Below, in pieces: positions 9,298-24,721 of a stretch of 64,000 nucleotides of DNA. The stretch covers positions 1-64,000 of the forward strand of contig NZ_VWPY01000008.1 in assembly GCF_011839805.1 (NCBI RefSeq), in the 5' to 3' direction. This DNA is from Kineococcus rubinsiae. GTDB lineage: Bacteria; Actinomycetota; Actinomycetes; Actinomycetales; Kineococcaceae. Under the pieces are notes generated by a model. That model searched no databases. It had not been told where the DNA came from and worked only from the letters and a program-made list of their open reading frames with translations. The position numbers and the translations under genes are program-made. How positions within the stretch are numbered: the stretch's first letter is position 1; each line of letters begins with the position of its first letter.

Positions 9298-10443
9298 TCA
9301 GGCGTGCGTCGGCTGCTGCTCCAGCAGGCGCAGGATCCGGTCGAGGTCGTCCAGGCCCGCGAAGTCCACCGTCAGGCGCCCCTTGGTGCGGCCCATGGCG
9401 ATGCGGACCCGCGTGTCGAGCCGCTCGGCGAGGGCGGAGGCCCGCTGCTCGACCTCGGGCTGCGGCTGCGCGGGGTTGCGGCGGCGCGGCGCGGTGTCGG
9501 CGTCGCCGAGGGCGATGATCTCCTCCACGGCCCGCACGGAGAGGCCCTCGGCCACGATGCGCTGCGCCAGCCGCTCCATGGCGCCGCCGTCCTCCAGGGA
9601 CAGCAGGGCGCGGGCGTGGCCCGCGCTGAGCACGCCGGCGGCGACGCGGCGCTGCACGAGCGGGGGGAGCTTCAGCAGCCGCAGCGTGTTGCTGATCTGC
9701 GGGCGCGACCGGCCGATCCGGCCCGCGAGGTCCTCGTGGGTGCAGCCGAAGTCCTCGAGCAGCTGCTGGTAGGCGGCGGCCTCCTCCAGCGGGTTCAGCT
9801 GGCTGCGGTGCAGGTTCTCCAGCAGCGCGTCGCGGAGCAGGTCGTCGTCGGCGGTGTCGCGGATGATCGCGGGGATCGTGGCGAGGCCGGCCTCGGTGGC
9901 GGCGCGCCAGCGGCGCTCGCCCATGACGAGCTCGTACGTCTCCGGCTCACCCGCCACGGGCGGCGCGGCGCGGAGCACGATCGGCTGCAGGACGCCGATC
10001 TCCTGCACGGAGTGGACCAGCTCGGCGAGCTCGTCCTCGTCGAACACCGTCCGCGGCTGGCGCGGGTTCGGCATGATCGAGGTGACCGGCACCTCGGCGA
10101 AGCGTGCACCCGGCACCGCGACCAGCCCGTCGGGCTGGACGGCCGCGAGAGGCGCCACGTCGTCGTCACGGGCCGCGTCGTCGCCGGCGGCGCGCTGGTC
10201 GTCCTGCGCGTCTCGTGCGTCGTTCTCGCGGCCCTCACGGGCCGCGGAGGGCGTCTCGTCCGCGGGGCGCTCCGGCTCGGCCGGCACCTCGCGCTGGTCG
10301 AAGAACACGTCGACCGGCCGCCCCGCAGGGCGCGGGGGGACGGCGCCGAAGGCGTCGGCGTGCTGCGGCCGGGGCGATGCCGCCGGGCCGTTGGGGATGA
10401 GGGCTCCCAGCCCGCGCCCCAGGCCTCGCCGCTTGTCGCTCAC
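9298..10443 (-). CDS. parB: Chromosome partitioning protein ParB
   Basis: The 381-residue CTP-dependent clamp binds parS near the origin and spreads along DNA to form the partition complex. The basic N-terminus ([16 protein letters not shown]) matches the ParA-stimulating motif. After about 100 acidic linker residues come the ParB/Srx domain ([47 protein letters not shown] with the CTP-binding GERRWRA box), the helix-turn-helix domain ([25 protein letters not shown]) and a C-terminal dimerisation segment. GTG 10443 overlaps the parA stop and follows AGGAGG. Several parS sites lie in parA and rsmG upstream, so ParB probably coats its own operon. Confidence 0.97.
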
Positions 10444-12023
10444 GCTCCACCCTCCTGCGACGCCATCCCGCGCCGACCGATCGAACTGTCCGTCCACCGC
10501 GACCACGGGTCCGCCACCTGCGGCGGCGACCCGACGGCAGCATCTCGCGCCGGGGTCCGCACGTCGGTGACCGCCGCCGGTGTGTCGTCGGGCGCGGCCC
10601 CGCGCTGCGCCATCTCCCGCGCCGCCTCCAGATAGGCGAGGGCCCCCGAGGAGGACGGGTCGTAAGTCATGACCGTCTTGCCGTGGCTGGGGGCCTCGGA
10701 GATGCGCACGGACCGCGGGACGAGCGAGCGCAGCACCTCGCCGCCGAAGTGCCCGCGCACCTCCTCGACCACCTGCGCCGCCAGGCGCGTCCGGCCGTCG
10801 TACATGGTCAGCAGGATCGTCGAGACGTGCAGGTCCGGGTTGAGGTGCTGCTGGATCAGCTCGATGTTCGACAGCAGCTGCGTCAGGCCCTCCAGTGCGT
10901 AGTACTCGCACTGGATGGGGATGAGGACCTCGGGTGCCGCGACGAAGGCGTTGATGGTCAGCAGGCCGAGGCTCGGCGGGCAGTCGATGAGCACGTAGTC
11001 GATGCGCCCGGCGCCGGAGCGCTCCACCTGCTTGAGGTAGGTCGTGAGGGCGCGCAGCAGGCGCGACTCGCGCGCGACCATGCTCACCAGCTCGATCTCC
11101 GCCCCGGCGAGGTCGATCGTCGCGGGGGCGCACCAGAGGTCCGGCGCCTCGCCGCAGCGCTGCACCACGTCGGCGAGGGGCTTGCCCTCGACGAGGACCT
11201 CGTAGACCCCCGGCACGTCGGCGCTGTGGTCGATGCCCAGCGCCGTGGAGGCGTTGCCCTGCGGGTCCAGGTCCAGGACGAGCACCTTGAGACCGGCCAG
11301 CGACAGCGCCGCCGCAAGGTTCACGGCGGTCGTGGTCTTGCCGACGCCGCCCTTCTGGTTGGCGATCGTCAGAATCCGGGTCTCGACCGGCGCCGGGAAG
11401 CGCGCAGTCGCGGGACGAGCCGCGGCGGTCACCGGAGGCAGTGGCGCCTCGTTGGTCGGCTCGTCCACGACGGGAGTCGGCGGGACGACGGGCGCCGACG
11501 GAGGTGCCGGGTCCTCCAGCGTGCTGGCCTGCGGCATCGGCACGGGCGCGACCTCTCCTGTTTCACGTGGAACATCGAGCGGGGGGTCGTAGCGAGGGGG
11601 CCTCACCAGGACGTCGGTCACCGCGGTTCCACGTGGAACATCGCTGGCCTGCACAGGAGGCGCTTCACTCGCGAGAGGCGACGGCACCGTGGTCGGGACC
11701 GAGGGCTCGGGGTCGGGAGCCGGCACGGTCGGTCCGACAACAGCCGCCTCCGTTTCACGTGGAACACGAGCGACCGCGGCGGGCGGAGTCAGCTCGCCGC
11801 GCGCCAGGTCATCTCCGGATGCGACGGACACCGAGACGGACAGCTCATCCTCGACAGCCTTCGATGTTTCACCTGGAACGTCCTCGTGGACGGTGGCAGA
11901 GGGAGCTGACTCCACCGTGGTGTCCCCCTCCACGGCGCTCCGGGACGGCCCGAACCAGCCGAGGCCGCGGGGCCGAGAGTCCTGAGGGGCGGTGCTGCCG
12001 CCGAACCAGCCGAGAGTGCTCAC
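10440..12023 (-). CDS. parA: Chromosome partitioning ATPase ParA with long N-terminal extension
   Basis: The 527-residue protein has a low-complexity N-terminal extension of about 215 residues, then a full ParA ATPase domain: deviant Walker [12 protein letters not shown] (signature Lys near 222, GKT at 228-230), [33 protein letters not shown], and [20 protein letters not shown]. It forms the nucleoid-bound gradient that pulls ParB-parS complexes. Usual ParA proteins have 250 to 320 residues. The extension has the motif VPRET/VPRGT three times and VPGET once, each encoded by a parS or parS-like site. GTG 12023 was chosen for its GGAAGG ribosome site; the frame extends to 12128, overlapping rsmG. 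Confidence 0.95.
11559..11574. promoter_or_regulatory. parS site within parA
   Basis: TGTTTCACGTGGAACA is a 15/16 match to the palindromic parS consensus. It encodes V-P-R-E-T at about ParA residue 151. Confidence 0.93.
11625..11640. promoter_or_regulatory. parS site within parA
   Basis: GGTTCCACGTGGAACA has the perfect palindromic core GTTCCACGTGGAAC. It encodes V-P-R-G-T at about ParA residue 129. Confidence 0.93.
11751..11766. promoter_or_regulatory. parS site within parA
   Basis: CGTTTCACGTGGAACA has the parS core with one arm mismatch. It encodes V-P-R-E-T at about ParA residue 87. Confidence 0.92.
11865..11880. promoter_or_regulatory. Degenerate parS-like site within parA
   Basis: TGTTTCACCTGGAACG differs from parS at the central CACGTG (CACCTG) and at the last base. 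It encodes V-P-G-E-T near ParA residue 49, in the same frame as the three full sites. It may be a decayed or weak site. Confidence 0.5.
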
Positions 12024-12069
12024 GCTGAGGGCCTTCCGGGACGAGATCGGAACAGGGAGGCGGGGGACG

Positions 12070-12831
12070 TCACCGCTGGCGGGCGCCGCGGGCTGAACCG
12101 CGGGCGGGCTTCTTCTTGGCCGGCGCACCGGCGACCGGCGCCTTGCGCAGCGGACCCGTCCCGCGGCCGACGCGGACCACGGTCGTCCCGGTCTCGTCGT
12201 CCGGCCCGCAGTGGACGACCTCCGGGGTGGTGGTGATGCCGAGCGCCTTGAGCGCGGCGCCGGCCGCCTCGATCTCCTCGGGAGCCGAGCGGCCCTTGAT
12301 GGCGAGCAGGGAACCCTCGGTCTGCACCAGCGGCATCGTCCACCCGTAGAGGGTGGCCAGCGGCGCGACCGCGCGGGCTGTGACGATCGGCGCGGAGAAC
12401 TCCCCGGCGACGTCCTCGGCGCGGCCGCGGACCACGGCGACCTGGTCGCGCAGGCCGAGCTCGGCGACCACCTCGCGCAGGAAGTGGAACCGGCGCTCGA
12501 GGGGCTCGACCAGCCGGATCTGGAGGTCTGGGCGGGCGAGCGCCACCGGGATGCCGGGCAGCCCGGCGCCGGAGCCCACGTCGATGACGGAGGCGTCCTG
12601 GGGGATCAGCTCGTGGAGGTACGCGCAGTTCAGCAGGTGCCGGCTCCACAGGCGGGGCACCTCGCGCGGACCGATCAGCCCGCGCTCGACGCCCGCGTCG
12701 GCGAGGTACGCGACGTAGGCGGCAGCCAGCTCCACCCGCTCCCCGAACACGTCGGCTGCGGCAGCGGGAACGACGGAGGGCGGTGGTGTTCCACGTGGAA
12801 CACCACCGCCCTCGGGCACTTCGTCAGACAC
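12070..12831 (-). CDS. rsmG: 16S rRNA (guanine(527)-N7)-methyltransferase RsmG
   Basis: The 253-residue SAM-dependent enzyme methylates G527 of 16S rRNA. The SAM-binding motif VIDVGSGAGLPGIPVALARPDL, the LVEPLERRFHFLREVV segment and VTARAVAPLATLYGWTMPLV are all present, after the YVAYLADAGVERGLIGPREVPRLWSRHLLNC region typical of GidB. A basic tail (PAKKKPARGSARGARQR) ends it. The first 20 residues include VPRGT encoded by a perfect parS, so this end of the gene doubles as a ParB-binding site. It lies between jag and parA in one operon. Confidence 0.96.
   Translation of the reverse strand: MSDEVPEGGGVPRGTPPPSVVPAAAADVFGERVELAAAYVAYLADAGVERGLIGPREVPRLWSRHLLNCAYLHELIPQDASVIDVGSGAGLPGIPVALARPDLQIRLVEPLERRFHFLREVVAELGLRDQVAVVRGRAEDVAGEFSAPIVTARAVAPLATLYGWTMPLVQTEGSLLAIKGRSAPEEIEAAGAALKALGITTTPEVVHCGPDDETGTTVVRVGRGTGPLRKAPVAGAPAKKKPARGSARGARQR
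12782..12807. promoter_or_regulatory. parS site inside a perfect 26-bp palindrome at the start of rsmG
   Basis: The parS 16-mer TGTTCCACGTGGAACA at 12787-12802 is extended on both sides (GGTGG and CCACC) to a perfect 26-bp palindrome. It lies in the first codons of rsmG and encodes V-P-R-G-T-P-P. It is the most symmetrical parS copy in the window. Confidence 0.96.
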
Positions 12832-12866
12832 CCCGTCACCCTATCGGGCGGGGGGTGCCCCTCAGC

Positions 12867-13487
12867 TCACGCGCTGGGCGCGTCCCCGGCCGCCTCGGGC
12901 GCGAGCACGACGACGCGGCGCCGGGGCTCCTCACCCTCGGACTCGGACTCGAGCCCGGCCGCGGCGACGGCGTCGTGGACGACCTTGCGCTCGAACGCCG
13001 GCATCGGGTCGAGCTTCTCGTCGGTGCCGCTGGCCCGCACCCGGGCCACGACCTCCTGGGCGAGGCCGATCAGCGAGGTCCGCTTCTCGGCCCGGAAGCC
13101 CGCGACGTCGAGGAGGAGCCGCGTGCGGTCCCCGGTCTGGGCCTGCACCGCGAGGCGCGTCAGCTCCTGCAGCGCCTCGAGCACCTCGCCGTCGCTCCCG
13201 ACGAGCTTGCGCAGCGCCGGCGTCCCGGCCCCGTCGGCGACGATCGCGACCGACGCGCGGCCGTTCTCGATGTCGATGTCGATGTCACCGTCGAGGTCGA
13301 CGATGTCGAGGAGCTCCTCGAGGTAGTCGGCGGCGACGTCGCCCTCCTCCTCCAGGCGCGTCGCTCCCGCGCCCTTCGGCTGGCGCGGGGTGCGCCCCGT
13401 CGCGGCGGCGGGGGCACCCGCCTCCGGCTGCTCCGCCGTCTGCATCGCCTCGGTGTCGTCCACCGCTCCTGCCGTGCCCTGACTCAC
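12867..13487 (-). CDS. jag: Jag/SpoIIIJ-associated RNA-binding protein (KH and R3H domains)
   Basis: The protein has 206 residues. A Gln/Ala-rich N-terminus of about 45 residues lacks the full Jag-N domain. A KH domain follows (VDLDGDIDIDIENGRASVAIVADGAG, ALRKLVGSDGEVLEALQELTRLAVQ), then an R3H domain (RTSLIGLAQEVVARVRASGTDEKLDPMPAFERKVVHDAVA) and a charged tail. The R3H basic residues are partly replaced. It is an RNA-binding partner of the YidC module. GTG 13487 has an ideal AGGAGG ribosome site. It lies 73 nt after yidC. Confidence 0.93.
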   Translation of the reverse strand: MSQGTAGAVDDTEAMQTAEQPEAGAPAAATGRTPRQPKGAGATRLEEEGDVAADYLEELLDIVDLDGDIDIDIENGRASVAIVADGAGTPALRKLVGSDGEVLEALQELTRLAVQAQTGDRTRLLLDVAGFRAEKRTSLIGLAQEVVARVRASGTDEKLDPMPAFERKVVHDAVAAAGLESESEGEEPRRRVVVLAPEAAGDAPSA

Positions 13488-13560
13488 GCGTCCTCCTGGG
13501 TGCCGCGTCCGCGGCTCGTCGTCCTGGTCCGCACCGGTGGGGTGCGTCGTCTGGCGGGGG

Positions 13561-14589
13561 TCAGCGCCCGGTGGGGCGCTGACTGCTCGGCGGGGCGCCC
13601 GGGCGGCGTCGCGCGTCGCGGCTGGTGCCCCGCTTGGGCTGCTGCCGCTGACGCCGCACGGGCGCCACGGACGAGGTGTGGTCGCCGTCCTTGGTCAGCT
13701 GCAGTCCACCACCGGTCTCGGCGGAGGGCAGAACGTGGCCGCGGCGGGCCGCCCGGCGCGCCTTGCGCTCCTCGAGCTCCTTCTCGGCGATGGAGCCCGG
13801 GTTGGGCATGCGCCGGATGACGAAGAACTGCTGGCCCATGGACCAGACGTTCGTCGTGAGCCAGTAGAGGAGGACACCGATCGGGAAGTTGACGCCCGAC
13901 ACCGCGAAGACGATGGGCAGCACGTAGAGCATGAGCTTCTGCTGCTGCGCGAAGGGGTTGTTCTCCATCGACGCCGACGACGTGTTCTTCGCCATCAGCT
14001 GGCGCTGCGTCACGAACTGCGACGCGGACATCAGCACGATCATCACGGCGGTGAGGACGATGGTGTTCCAGTCGCCCGTACCCCAGGACTTCAGGAAGAT
14101 GCCGGACAGCTTCGCGCCGAAGATCGTGGCGTTGTCCGCCTGGTCGACCAGGTCGAGGGTCAGCACACCGACCGGCTTGCGCTGCCCGATGCCGTTCAGC
14201 GTGTGGAACAGCGCCAGGAAGATGGGCGACTGCAGCAGGATCGGCAAGCAGGAGGCCATCGGGTTGGTCCCCGACGACCGGTACAGGGCCATCATCTCCT
14301 GCTGCTGCGCCTGACGGCTCGCAGGATCGGTCTTGCCCTTGTACTTCGCCTGGATCTTGCGCATCTCCGGCTGGATGACCTGCATCCCGCGCATCGCCTT
14401 GATCTGCTTCACGAACAAGGGGATGAGGATGATGCGGACGACGACGACGAGCCCGATGATCGAGAGCGCCCAGGCCGTCCCGCCCGCCGGGTCGAAGCCC
14501 ACGAACGTCCACAGGTCGTGGAAGCGCACCATGATCCACGCGACCACCCACTGGATGGGGTAGAGCAGTTGGTAGAAGAAATCGATCAT
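13561..14589 (-). CDS. yidC: Membrane protein insertase YidC
   Basis: The 342-residue Oxa1-type insertase places proteins into the plasma membrane with or without SecYEG. An N-terminal helix (YPIQWVVAWIMV) is followed by the conserved core: GGTAWALSIIGLVVVVRIILIPLFVKQIKAM with the hydrophilic-groove Arg in VVVRIILIP, the cytoplasmic coiled coil (MRKIQAKYKGK), MASCLPILLQSPIFLALFHTL, then helices up to QKLMLYVLPIVFAVSGVNFPIGVLLYWLTTNVWSMGQQ. A basic, Arg/Gln-rich tail ends it, as in other actinobacterial YidC. It sits in the rpmH-rnpA-yidD-yidC-jag operon. Confidence 0.97.
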   Translation of the reverse strand: MIDFFYQLLYPIQWVVAWIMVRFHDLWTFVGFDPAGGTAWALSIIGLVVVVRIILIPLFVKQIKAMRGMQVIQPEMRKIQAKYKGKTDPASRQAQQQEMMALYRSSGTNPMASCLPILLQSPIFLALFHTLNGIGQRKPVGVLTLDLVDQADNATIFGAKLSGIFLKSWGTGDWNTIVLTAVMIVLMSASQFVTQRQLMAKNTSSASMENNPFAQQQKLMLYVLPIVFAVSGVNFPIGVLLYWLTTNVWSMGQQFFVIRRMPNPGSIAEKELEERKARRAARRGHVLPSAETGGGLQLTKDGDHTSSVAPVRRQRQQPKRGTSRDARRRPGAPPSSQRPTGR

Positions 14590-14677
14590 CGCCCGGCAGT
14601 CCTCTCCTCCACTCGCCGGTCGCCCGGCGGCTCGTGTCCGAGGCCCTGCTGATCGGGGCCCGCTCGACGTTGTCGTC

Positions 14678-14697
14678 GAGGACGCGCTGGCGTCCTC
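14678..14697. other. Hairpin between yidD and yidC
   Basis: GAGGACGC and GCGTCCTC form a perfect 8-bp stem with a four-base loop (GCTG) in the 139-nt yidD-yidC gap. It could act in transcript processing or partial termination in the operon. Confidence 0.5.
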
Positions 14698-14728
14698 TCA
14701 GGTTCTCGGTGCGGCCGTGGGCTCCCGC

Positions 14729-15055
14729 TCACGAGCGCTGCCGCCGCGATGGACCCCTCGGCGGAACGGGGTCGACGCCTCCAGGGTTCCACGGGTGGCA
14801 CCGCAGCAGGCGCCTGACGGCCAGCCAGGTCCCGCGTACGGCCCCGTGCGTCCGCAGCGCGTCGACGGCGTAGGCCGAGCAGGAGGGGTAGAAGCGGCAG
14901 GTGGGGCCCAGGAGGGGGGAGACCACGAGCTGGTAGGCGCGGACCAGGCCGACCAGCAGCAGTGCCGGCCAGCGCAGGGGGTGCCAGCGGGAGCGGCGTC
15001 CCCGGTCCTCGCGCTGCGCCCGGTCCTCCCGGTGCCCGGCCGCGACGTCAGCCAC
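14729..15055 (-). CDS. yidD: Membrane protein insertion efficiency factor YidD
   Basis: The 108-residue protein carries the YidD core: [35 protein letters not shown], with the conserved Cys pair, and [24 protein letters not shown]. It assists YidC-dependent insertion at the inner face of the membrane. The N-terminal 30 residues are charged and variable. GTG 15055 overlaps the rnpA stop by 8 nt, so the two are coupled; an internal start is possible. Confidence 0.94.
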
Positions 15056-15398
15056 GGCCCGTCAGCCCCAGGCGGCGCAGACCCTTGTCGAGGTCGGCGG
15101 CGAGTTCCGCGGACGAGGCCCCGGCCGCGGACGGCAGGGCCCGCACGACGAGGAGCCCGCCCTCCGGGGGGAGGGAGGGCCAGCGGTGGGCGGCGAGGTG
15201 GCGCAACCGGCGCTGGGTGCGGTGCCGCACGACCGATCCCCCGACCGCCTTGGACACGACGAAGCCCACCCTCGTGGGGTGGGCTTCGTCGGTCGCGGTC
15301 CAGTGCAGGACCATGCGACGCGTTCCGGCGCGGCTGCCGCCGCGCAGGGCCGACGTGAAGTCGTCCTTGCGTCGCAGGCGGCGCGCCGCGGGCAGCAC
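15048..15398 (-). CDS. rnpA: Ribonuclease P protein component
   Basis: The 116-residue basic protein is the subunit that binds the RNase P RNA and the 5' leader of pre-tRNA. The start [17 protein letters not shown] and the conserved RNR-type motif [24 protein letters not shown] are clear. GTG 15398, 19 nt after the rpmH stop, gives the family N-terminus; no strong ribosome site is visible, so reading is probably coupled to rpmH. Confidence 0.95.
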
Positions 15399-15417
15399 GC
15401 TGAGGTCGCGGGGTCGG

Positions 15418-15555
15418 TCAGGCGGAGATCTCCGCGCGGCCCTTGGCACGGCGCGCGGAGAGGATGGCGCGGCCGGCGCGGGTGCGCATCCGCAGGCGGA
15501 AGCCGTGGGTCTTGGCCCGCCGACGGTTGTTCGGCTGGAAGGTCCGCTTGCTCAC
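15418..15555 (-). CDS. rpmH: Large ribosomal subunit protein bL34
   Basis: The 45-residue basic protein [20 protein letters not shown] and so on is almost invariant among bacteria. GTG 15555 has a GGAGA ribosome site; the longer upstream frame is not coding. It is the first gene of the rpmH-rnpA-yidD-yidC-jag-rsmG-parA-parB run and is divergent from dnaA. Confidence 0.98.
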
Positions 15556-15634
15556 GTGAGGTCTCCAAGATCGCCAGGTCCGGGCTCCCGTCGCCCGCCG
15601 CGAGGCAGGTCGGACGCAGAGCACAATCCGGACC

Positions 15635-15663
15635 AGAGTACGGGCGCCGGAGGCAGGGGTCAA
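15635..15663 (-). promoter_or_regulatory. rpmH operon promoter
   Basis: Read on the minus strand, TTGACC (15663-15658) is followed by 17 nt and TACTCT (15640-15635). The spacing and hexamers fit the housekeeping sigma factor. The start of transcription would fall about 70 nt before rpmH. Confidence 0.78.
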
Positions 15664-15818
15664 AGCGCCGTCCGCGGGAGGCCGCGCAGAGGACGACGGG
15701 GTGGACGACGAGGCGCTGCGGGGCGGGTACCGTCGTGCCTGCGCACAGCGGTGGCCGGATCCTCGGGTCTCCGCGCGTCGGGCGGGCCAACCCCGGGCGA
15801 CCGGGCGCGGGACCCCAC

Positions 15819-15847
15819 TTGAACGGTGGAGCCACCGTTGTTACCGT
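15819..15847 (+). promoter_or_regulatory. Putative dnaA promoter with inverted repeat in the spacer
   Basis: TTGAAC (15819-15824), 17 nt, then TACCGT (15842-15847). The spacer and -35 overlap a perfect inverted repeat AACGGTGG-AG-CCACCGTT (15822-15839), a likely repressor or activator site. The rest of the 434-nt rpmH-dnaA gap holds the rpmH promoter and two DnaA-box-like sequences and no gene. Confidence 0.5.
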
Positions 15848-15929
15848 CCCGCCTCGACGAGCCGACGTCCGCGCCGATGACCGGTGCACCGACGGGCCTC
15901 CTCGTCGTCCCCGGCCGTCGTGCACAGTG

Positions 15930-15950
15930 TGTGGACAGGGGTGTGGACGG
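15930..15950. promoter_or_regulatory. Two DnaA-box-like sequences in the dnaA leader
   Basis: TGTGGACAG (15930-15938) and TGTGGACGG (15942-15950) lie 40 to 60 nt before the dnaA start. They resemble the actinobacterial DnaA box TGTGGACAA and may let DnaA repress its own gene. Confidence 0.6.
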
Positions 15951-15989
15951 AGCCCGTCGATCAGCGTGGAACGACGGGAGAACCCCTCA

Positions 15990-17651
15990 GTGGACACCGA
16001 TGGCGGAGACTTCCGGGGCGTCTGGGAGCGCGCAGTGGCGCAGCTCGACGCCGACGGGGTCACCCAGCACCAGAAGGCCTTCGTGCGGCTCACGCAGCCC
16101 CTGGGCCTGCTGGACGGGACCGCGCTGCTGGCCGTGCCGAACGACCTCACCAAGGAGGTCATCGAGCAGAAGGTCCGCGAGCCGCTGACCCGGGCGCTGG
16201 CCGACCAGCTCGGCCACAGCGTCCGGCTCGCCGTGACCGTGGACGCCTCCATCGGGGGGACGCTGTCGCCGGAGCTGAACGGCGAGTCGGGCTCCGGCCC
16301 GGGGCACGGCGACCTGGAGCGCGAGCGGGTGGCCGGCGGGGACCCGGACGGTGCGACGACGCGACGCGGCTACGACGGCCGGCCGACGGACGCCCGCACG
16401 GGTGACTCCCGCACCGGTGACGCGCGGGGCGGCGGGGAGAACCGGCGCTACGACGACGACGGCTACGACGGCCGGGGCTCGGGCCGCCGCACGGCGGAGG
16501 ACGCCAACCCGCTCGACGACTCCGACCCCGACCTGCTCTTCACGGGCTTCAAGGTCGACCGCGGCCCCGGCACCGGGCGCCAGCCCTCGCGCGGGCGCAC
16601 CCCCAGCAAGGTCGAGAACGCGCGGCTGAACCCGAAGTACATCTTCGAGACCTTCGTCATCGGCGCCAGCAACCGCTTCGCGCACGCCGCGGCCGTCGCG
16701 GTCGCCGAGGCGCCGGCCAAGGCCTACAACCCGCTCTTCATCTACGGGGAGTCCGGGCTGGGCAAGACGCACCTGCTGCACGCCATCGGGCACTACGCGC
16801 AGAACCTCTACCCGGGCGTGCAGGTGCGGTACGTGAACTCCGAGGAGTTCACCAACGACTTCATCAACTCGATCCGCGACGACAAGGCGCAGGCCTTCCA
16901 GCGCCGCTACCGCGACGTCGACGTCCTCCTGATCGACGACATCCAGTTCCTGTCGAACAAGGTGCAGACGCAGGAGGAGTTCTTCCACACCTTCAACACG
17001 CTGCACAACGCGAGCAAGCAGGTGGTCATCACCTCCGACCTGCCGCCCAAGCAGCTGTCGGGGTTCGAGGAGCGCATGCGCAGCCGCTTCGAGTGGGGCC
17101 TGATCACCGACGTCCAGCCCCCGGACCTCGAGACCCGCATCGCCATCCTCCGCAAGAAGGCGACGGGGGAGCGCCTGGAGGCGCCCGACGACGTGCTGGA
17201 GTACATCGCGTCGAAGATCTCCTCCAACATCCGCGAGCTCGAGGGCGCGCTGATCCGCGTCACGGCCTTCGCGAGCCTCAACCGCCAGCCCGTCGACATG
17301 CAGCTGGCGGAGATCGTGCTGCGCGACCTCATCCCCAACGACGAGACGCCCGAGATCACGGCGTCGGCGATCATGGGCCAGACGGCGTCCTACTTCAGCG
17401 TCACGCTGGAGGACCTGTGCGGCACGTCCCGCTCCCGGACGCTCGTGACCGCCCGCCAGATCGCCATGTACCTGTGCCGGGAGCTGACCGAGCTGTCGCT
17501 GCCGAAGATCGGGCAGCACTTCGGCGGCCGCGACCACACGACCGTCATGCACGCCGAGCGCAAGATCCGGCAGCAGATGGCGGAGCGGCGCAGCACCTAC
17601 AACCAGGTGACCGAGCTGACCAACCGCATCAAGAAGCAGGCCGGCGCCTGA
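15990..17651 (+). CDS. dnaA: Chromosomal replication initiator protein DnaA
   Basis: The 553-residue protein binds DnaA boxes and melts oriC. Domain I (about 1-90) holds [16 protein letters not shown]. Domain II (about 90-195) is a long Gly/Asp/Arg-rich linker. Domain III is the AAA+ module, beginning at [23 protein letters not shown], with Walker [15 protein letters not shown] from residue 253, Walker [13 protein letters not shown] and the arginine-finger [13 protein letters not shown]. Domain IV ends with the box-binding signature [18 protein letters not shown] 15990 follows CGGGAG and gives the expected short N-terminus; the frame is open far upstream but without coding character. Confidence 0.98.
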
Positions 17652-24705: not shown

Positions 24706-24721
24706 GGTTCCACGTGGAACA
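24706..24721. promoter_or_regulatory. parS site between gyrB and gyrA
   Basis: GGTTCCACGTGGAACA has the perfect core GTTCCACGTGGAAC and starts one base after the gyrB stop. It is on the opposite side of oriC from the parA/rsmG cluster and is the only strong site in non-coding DNA. Confidence 0.94.

Follow-up and report, generated by a model that had tools for sequence, protein, structure and literature searches.

The par locus and its parS sites

The window analysed here is a stretch of 64,000 nucleotides, positions 1 to 64,000 of contig NZ_VWPY01000008.1 of Kineococcus rubinsiae. According to the ORF list, its minus strand carries yidC, jag, rsmG, parA and parB in this order (Table 1), where the names yidC and jag are assumed; an ORF at 15186-17651, recognised by eye, is presumably dnaA-like. 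The parA product has the deviant Walker A motif KGGVGKTT and a Pfam AAA_31 domain, as expected of a ParA/Soj ATPase, and Pfam found the ParB_N, HTH and C-terminal domains of a cognate ParB.

Table 1. Features of the par region in the window.
Feature	Position	Strand	Remarks
parB	9298..10443	-	Pfam ParB_N, HTH_ParB, ParB_C; ORF open to 11133, start putative
parA	10440..12023	-	527 aa from GTG 12023-12021; Pfam AAA_31, E 7.5e-55
Exact parS in parA	11560-11573	-	14-mer fits GTTYCACGTGRAAC; VPRET
Exact parS in parA	11626-11639	-	14-mer fits GTTYCACGTGRAAC; VPRGT
Exact parS in parA	11752-11765	-	14-mer fits GTTYCACGTGRAAC; VPRET
One-mismatch parS in parA	11866-11879	-	CACGTG core changed to CACCTG; VPGET
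rsmG (gidB)	12070..12831	-	253 aa if the start is GTG 12831; Pfam GidB, E 3.6e-46
38-bp perfect palindrome	12776..12813		centred on the rsmG parS
Exact parS in rsmG	12788-12801	+ (14-mer)	fits GTTYCACGTGRAAC; VPRGT
TAGGGT box, -10-like	12838..12843	-	six bases before the rsmG GTG
Exact parS in presumed gyrB-gyrA spacer	24707-24720		starts two bases past the gyrB ORF stop

GTG 12023-12021 is the best choice of parA start, since the genus then shares a start codon with the LGW motif after it: across Kineococcus a GTG, with a purine-rich stretch ahead of it in most cases, leads into the consensus V-T/S-Q-L-G-W-F-G ... L-G-W. With this start 224 residues precede GGVGK; in the longer 562-aa ORF the AAA_31 match begins at residue 251. 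The protein is laid out as a tandem LGWFG motif, a low-complexity linker with the parS sites, the ParA/AAA_31 ATPase core and a C-terminal tail. Judged from its sequence, the extension is real protein. Pairwise dN/dS was 0.39-0.95 in the linker versus 0.005-0.23 across 200 core codons among the 52 of 66 pairs listed, values that are rough because the alignments are gappy; the window compared with its closest relative (G007) gave 0.57 and 0.005, the former from an equally gappy linker alignment and likewise rough. AlphaFold, run on a shallow alignment, gave residues 1-207 a pLDDT below 50 and no secondary structure; the mean pLDDT of 47 with a 12-sequence alignment supports the statement that there is no confident fold in residues 1-207, and nothing further. 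The linker between the LGW motif and the ATPase core is probably disordered.

Seven matches to GTTTCACGTGAAAC with up to three mismatches were found in the window versus 0.64 expected, and none of 100 shuffles reached seven. All five copies of the exact word GTTYCACGTGRAAC in the 119 contigs of the 4.88-Mb assembly lie within the window, while the reversed control pattern is absent from the assembly; the shuffles and this control rule out a chance origin. Four of the exact sites are read in frame, three by parA and one by rsmG, and the last falls in the spacer between the genes that we take to be gyrB and gyrA. An earlier note on this DNA had claimed four strong and one degenerate parS in coding sequence, all in one frame, and this is what we found: four of its five sites have the exact 14-bp core of chromosomal parS and the fifth departs by one mismatch. 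The latter is probably a decayed parS; its aligned counterparts, the first sites of several other Kineococcus, are exact. The exact sites are also clustered beside parAB and the origin, as chromosomal parS sites are. We consider it likely, from these sequence features, that the sites are ordinary chromosomal ParABS loading sites, most of which lie within the parA frame in this lineage.

An antisense ORF over the same region (11441-12028, plus strand, 195 aa, with a repeated FHVEH) has no Pfam match, and we read it as a by-product of palindromes in GC-rich DNA.

Coding parS in related genomes

Each of 11 Kineococcus genomes and one genome of the sister genus has three to five exact sites in the parA extension, all in the parA frame; out-of-phase sites in the parA open frame numbered zero in these 12 genomes. 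The extension holds 43 of the 72 exact parS of the 11 Kineococcus, every one read in frame as V(P/S)R(E/G)T. A single in-frame site near the rsmG start is present in each of the 12 genomes and adds 11 to the Kineococcus count, so that parA and rsmG together hold 54 of 72: three quarters of the exact sites are coding, in two genes. Positions and spacings of the sites inside the linker vary between species.

We extended the comparison to 180 actinobacterial loci, made up of the 12 of Kineococcus and its sister genus, 80 of 111 other genomes from an order-wide search, 60 genomes picked by hand among 144 from a class-wide search outside the order (two of the 144 gave no match) and 28 named contigs. 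The named contigs are L023-L050 of a set of 80 loci, from which L022 was dropped as a duplicate of G010 and L051-L052 were left out; L053-L101 entered only the frame count outside the class. Where an upstream rsmG stop was lacking, the open frame served as the limit of the extension, together with a bound of 1500 nt in the peptide-spelling and codon counts. Site and peptide counts ignore relatedness. The ParA extension has one or more exact in-phase sites at 113 of the 180 loci, or in 95 of 152 genomes without the named contigs; counted by genus, with each named locus taken as its own genus, the figure is 73 of 117, and 55 of 89 without them. Coding parS in parA is not peculiar to Kineococcus.

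The distance from the rsmG stop to the P-loop had a median of 462 nt in genera with exact or hybrid sites (n=66) versus 313 nt in those without (n=33), with named loci counted singly and distances above 1500 nt left out. Linker length and site number correlated weakly (Spearman 0.33, 100 genera, kinship ignored), which we count against the main reading. A tandem [LVI]GW motif stands ahead of the ParA core in 50 of the 180 loci; in 45 of these the extension also carries exact or hybrid sites, always C-terminal to the start of the motif pair. The order is therefore N-terminal motif, parS-bearing linker, ATPase. The long N-terminal extension with parS described in the earlier note is borne out by 224 fast-evolving residues before GGVGK and by parS in 11 of 11 Kineococcus extensions. 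Its suggestion that carrying parS is the main reason for the extension is half true: the sites are there in all 11 genomes, but the best-conserved part is the N-terminal LGW motif, and at five of the 50 LGW loci the extension lacks any exact or hybrid site.

Several unusual arrangements were seen upstream of parA. In L201 (G084) six parS follow one another at an exact 28-bp spacing, between 906 and 766 nt ahead of the parA core match. In L179, L226, L037 and L042 an A before parS makes the site overlap a possible parA start codon, reading MFHVK. A parS lying about 2824 nt ahead of the parA core match in L156 (G024) centres 54-nt perfect arms that run up to the contig end and may be an assembly artefact.

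DNA word or peptide

The five residues encoded by each site could in principle be what is conserved. Every in-phase exact site yields V(S/P)R(E/G)T, and among the 32 one-mismatch in-phase sites 22 changes are synonymous and 10 alter the peptide, a ratio that taken alone would resemble peptide conservation. The spelling argues otherwise. Of 201 V[SP]R[EG]T peptides in the ParA extensions of the 180 loci, 179 are exact parS, 22 differ by one mismatch and none by more; in Kineococcus 43 of 44 are exact. The codons that parS imposes are rare in the Kineococcus parA core (GTT in 3 of 315 Val, CCA in 3 of 185 Pro, GAA in 20 of 243 Glu), so that, were the peptide selected, most copies would be expected in other codons. 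In the linker outside parS these codons are less rare than in the core (15 of 200, 6 of 259 and 29 of 178, respectively), which counts against this argument. The same peptide moreover occurs in proteins other than ParA, RsmG and ParB among them; an exact in-phase site is absent from the extension at 67 of 180 loci; and in the variants VPGET, DSRET, ASRET, VSREA, VSRES and VSHET 13 of 14 bases are kept while the peptide is lost. A functional V(S/P)RET peptide in ParA, serving in ParB contact, ATPase control or mimicry with parS spelled around it, is on these grounds highly improbable, and we rejected a function of VPRET on the codon evidence and its occurrence in unrelated proteins. We found no literature on VSRET as a whole word, in a search whose coverage excluded most subscription journals.

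These counts support selection on the DNA word, which appears to be kept at synonymous positions. The earlier note had proposed to ask whether the palindrome survives at such positions, and it does, with 179 of 201 peptides spelled as exact parS and none beyond one mismatch. The opposite case that it named, the same peptide over a synonymous break of the palindrome, is seen in 22 of 201; yet 19 of these 22 are one variant that also occurs outside parA in its vicinity. Its idea that the peptide might mimic a ParA- or ParB-contact motif is not supported, since no freely spelled copy was found among the 201, the same peptide recurs in rsmG, parB and other phyla, and the VPGET site of the window fits 13 of 14 bases with the arginine lost.

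The variant that accounts for 19 of the 22 one-mismatch peptides is spelled GTTTCCCGTGAAAC or its complement GTTTCACGGGAAAC. A search of 18 genomes, 14 of them chosen for having it in parA, detected 40 occurrences in 15 genomes, against none for the reversed control; 38 of the 40 are on the parA contig and 21 lie outside parA peptides. Since GTTTCCCGTGAAAC clusters on the parA contig, its behaviour is that of a DNA element belonging to the par region. To our eye it looks like a cross of parS and a Noc site, and it could be a version of parS for which ParB specificity has changed. The variant was seen near parA in 15 of the 18 genomes, for example G014, G056, G098 and G147.

The common reading frame

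In the ParA open frames of the 180 loci, 179 sites are in phase, none is in the second frame and 24 are in the third. Most of the 24 seem to lie upstream of the true ParA start, many of them near the upstream end of the open frame, as in Streptomyces loci where they stand ahead of the likely start; we nevertheless counted them against the main reading. Sites of the rsmG-parA spacer outside the parA open frame fall into the three phases as 12, 21 and 15, without strong phase. Other proteins read parS in the same frame: 25 of 26 sites in the aligned part of rsmG, where 11 of the 25 are the single Kineococcus site, and 11 of 12 in that of parB. Upstream of the aligned parts the bias is smaller, with 22 sites in frame versus 14 in the third frame at rsmG, which we count against the main reading, and three of five in frame at parB. 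Two sites in the aligned part of jag occupy the other two frames and count against it as well. At 49 loci of other classes and phyla (L053-L101), 17 of 21 ORF overlaps at GC <0.55 are in the same frame, and all 61 overlaps of these loci divide as 35, 7 and 19 over frames 0, 1 and 2, with many alternative ORFs on one site. Because the frame recurs in rsmG, parB and other phyla, it is a general tendency of coding parS and not a property of ParA.

The word itself may set the frame. One of its frames has a TGA if position 11 is A, as in most versions, another gives F-H-V-K/E and the third V-S/P-R-E/G-T. A fixed frame would follow if the TGA frame and the F-H-V-K/E frame were avoided and the polar, linker-friendly V-S/P-R-E/G-T frame were left; tolerance of the polar peptide would then be the reason for the frame.

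Alternatively, the frame could be purely historical, inherited from one ancestral in-frame site through tandem duplication and indels in multiples of three. Clear in-frame duplications exist: in G067 (L168) a parS-bearing 54-nt unit is repeated in tandem between 915 and 699 nt upstream of the P-loop, and such duplication adds to the frame bias. In keeping with a shared ancestral site, one site sits 141 nt before GGVGKT in eight named Streptomyces loci and two further genomes. As a full account we find it unlikely: the flanks of sibling sites in Kineococcus have an identity of 0.373 (66 pairs) versus 0.380 for random in-frame linker pairs, and the frame shared with rsmG, parB and other phyla is beyond the reach of duplication inside parA. 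Duplication of larger blocks as the origin of the Kineococcus sibling sites was likewise rejected, the flank identity being without signal. The outer copies of the 54-nt repeat in G067 are altered to VSREA.

The palindrome and promoter-like box at rsmG

The rsmG site differs in kind from the parA sites. Its palindrome continues beyond parS by unbroken arms of 11-12 nt in 10 of 11 Kineococcus and 15 nt in the sister genus; in the remaining genome (G009) a mismatch adjoins parS. Across the 12 sequences 98.5% of cells pair, and eight of 17 pairs have changed on both sides, versus a mean of 2.8 in shuffles (none of 500 reached eight); slid controls gave 1-3. Some of these double changes also substitute residues of RsmG. 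Among the 180 loci, arms of at least 6 nt were found at 18 of 74 sites at the jag-rsmG junction versus one of 179 in-phase parA sites; elsewhere they occur at six of 69 spacer sites, four of 108 further upstream and three of 59 downstream. Ten of the 18 long-arm junction sites are in Kineococcus, and five of 43 genera have such sites. As an alternative to selection, the palindrome could have been perfected by a mutational route, template switching. Long arms at the jag-rsmG junction were also seen in G018, G036, G052, G081, G210 and G260.

RNA folding predicts a stable hairpin with a 17-bp stem, the first element of an intrinsic terminator; the fold z-score of -5.99 was computed over 101 nt, which include a second hairpin as well. 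The second element, a U-run, is missing, since in the window the hairpin is followed by CGTCGTTCCC. A run of seven T after the hairpin occurs only in G210 among the 18 junction sites with arms of at least 6 nt, and in no Kineococcus.

TAGGGT or TAGGCT stands at the position of the promoter-like box in 11 of 11 Kineococcus. A TAGG(G/C)T box six bases before a conserved GTG suggests a leaderless transcript, with the box as its putative promoter element. A sigma70-consensus scan of 11000-14800 returned no promoter; the same scan gave one terminator-like site at 14321-14336, away from the rsmG hairpin. The rsmG site is counted as coding on the premise that rsmG starts at or near GTG 12831, a start predicted from conservation only. 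A dual use of this parS is conceivable, and we put it forward tentatively: it would be both a ParB loading site and the core of a conserved hairpin with which a leaderless rsmG-parA-parB transcript begins, where ParB and the mRNA or cruciform structure would jointly set parAB expression, and in some relatives it might serve as terminator of the upstream gene.

Proposed mechanism and known systems

In our model ParB would load on the parS array near the origin, the sites being predicted from sequence to bind it. The ParA linker would tolerate such words, so that parS copies could be gained, lost and moved there provided the frame is kept, and ParB loading inside the operon would dampen transcription of rsmG-parA-parB. 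Autoregulation by this route, to which the earlier note had pointed, is plausible. It might even be the main purpose of the in-operon sites, as an operator at which ParB forms a roadblock on parAB, with segregation served elsewhere. The parS right after the promoter-like box at the rsmG start would suit such an operator, and there are precedents in the available parts of two reports: control by ParB has been proposed for gidB and parA of BCG (Casart 2008, PMC2346475), and in Pseudomonas aeruginosa the interaction of ParB with parS3 and parS4 represses transcription of the adjoining genes (PMC5521831). We doubt that this is their main role: with 54 of the 72 exact Kineococcus sites in parA and rsmG, few would be left for segregation, and site positions inside the linker are not conserved. 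We thus keep to loading sites for segregation, with autoregulation as a plausible addition.

A parS inside parA has been known in mycobacteria since 2008. As far as the accessible text of that report goes, BCG has two putative parS sites, at gidB and within the coding part of parA, and regulation of both genes by ParB was suggested (Casart 2008, PMC2346475). Mycobacterium bovis BCG and M. smegmatis thus resemble Kineococcus in having parS inside parA and at gidB, but their parA has a single site where that of Kineococcus has an array of three to five; at gidB of BCG the site overlaps a -10 box and the same text is silent on an extended palindrome, whereas the Kineococcus site has one of 38 bp (PMC2346475). 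Nine of ten parS of P. aeruginosa are predicted in coding sequences; unlike in Kineococcus there is apparently no ParA-linker array, judging from the part of the report at hand, and the sites were mutated without protein change (PMC4368675). The actinobacterium Corynebacterium glutamicum also has a cluster of ten parS near oriC, but in the portion of the source available nine of them are intergenic and only parS1 is coding, in trpCF (PMC7083940). What is new here is the palindrome of the rsmG site, with arms that co-vary in Kineococcus, beside a promoter-like box. No literature match was found for the in-frame array, the frame rule or the rsmG palindrome in a search only partly aimed at these.

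Where a centromere is mostly coding, the segregation motor and its own loading sites are tied together in evolution, and DNA-level constraint can be compared with protein-level constraint in a natural test. The frame rule V-S/P-R-E/G-T, holding in ParA, RsmG, ParB and other phyla, could locate coding parS from protein sequence alone, and the rsmG palindrome makes the suspected link between ParB, parS and expression of the par operon directly testable.

An N-terminal extension specific to Actinomycetota ParA has been described, and the N-terminus of M. smegmatis ParA is implicated in DivIVA binding; in the accessible part of that work the extension is 20-25 residues long, whereas in Kineococcus 145-224 residues precede GGVGK and carry parS words and the tandem LGW (PMC9298525). 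Literature pairing LGWP with ParA was not found in a search whose coverage excluded most subscription journals. The tandem [LV]GW at 11949-12023 (ParA residues 1-25) could be a motif through which ParA binds a polar or membrane partner.
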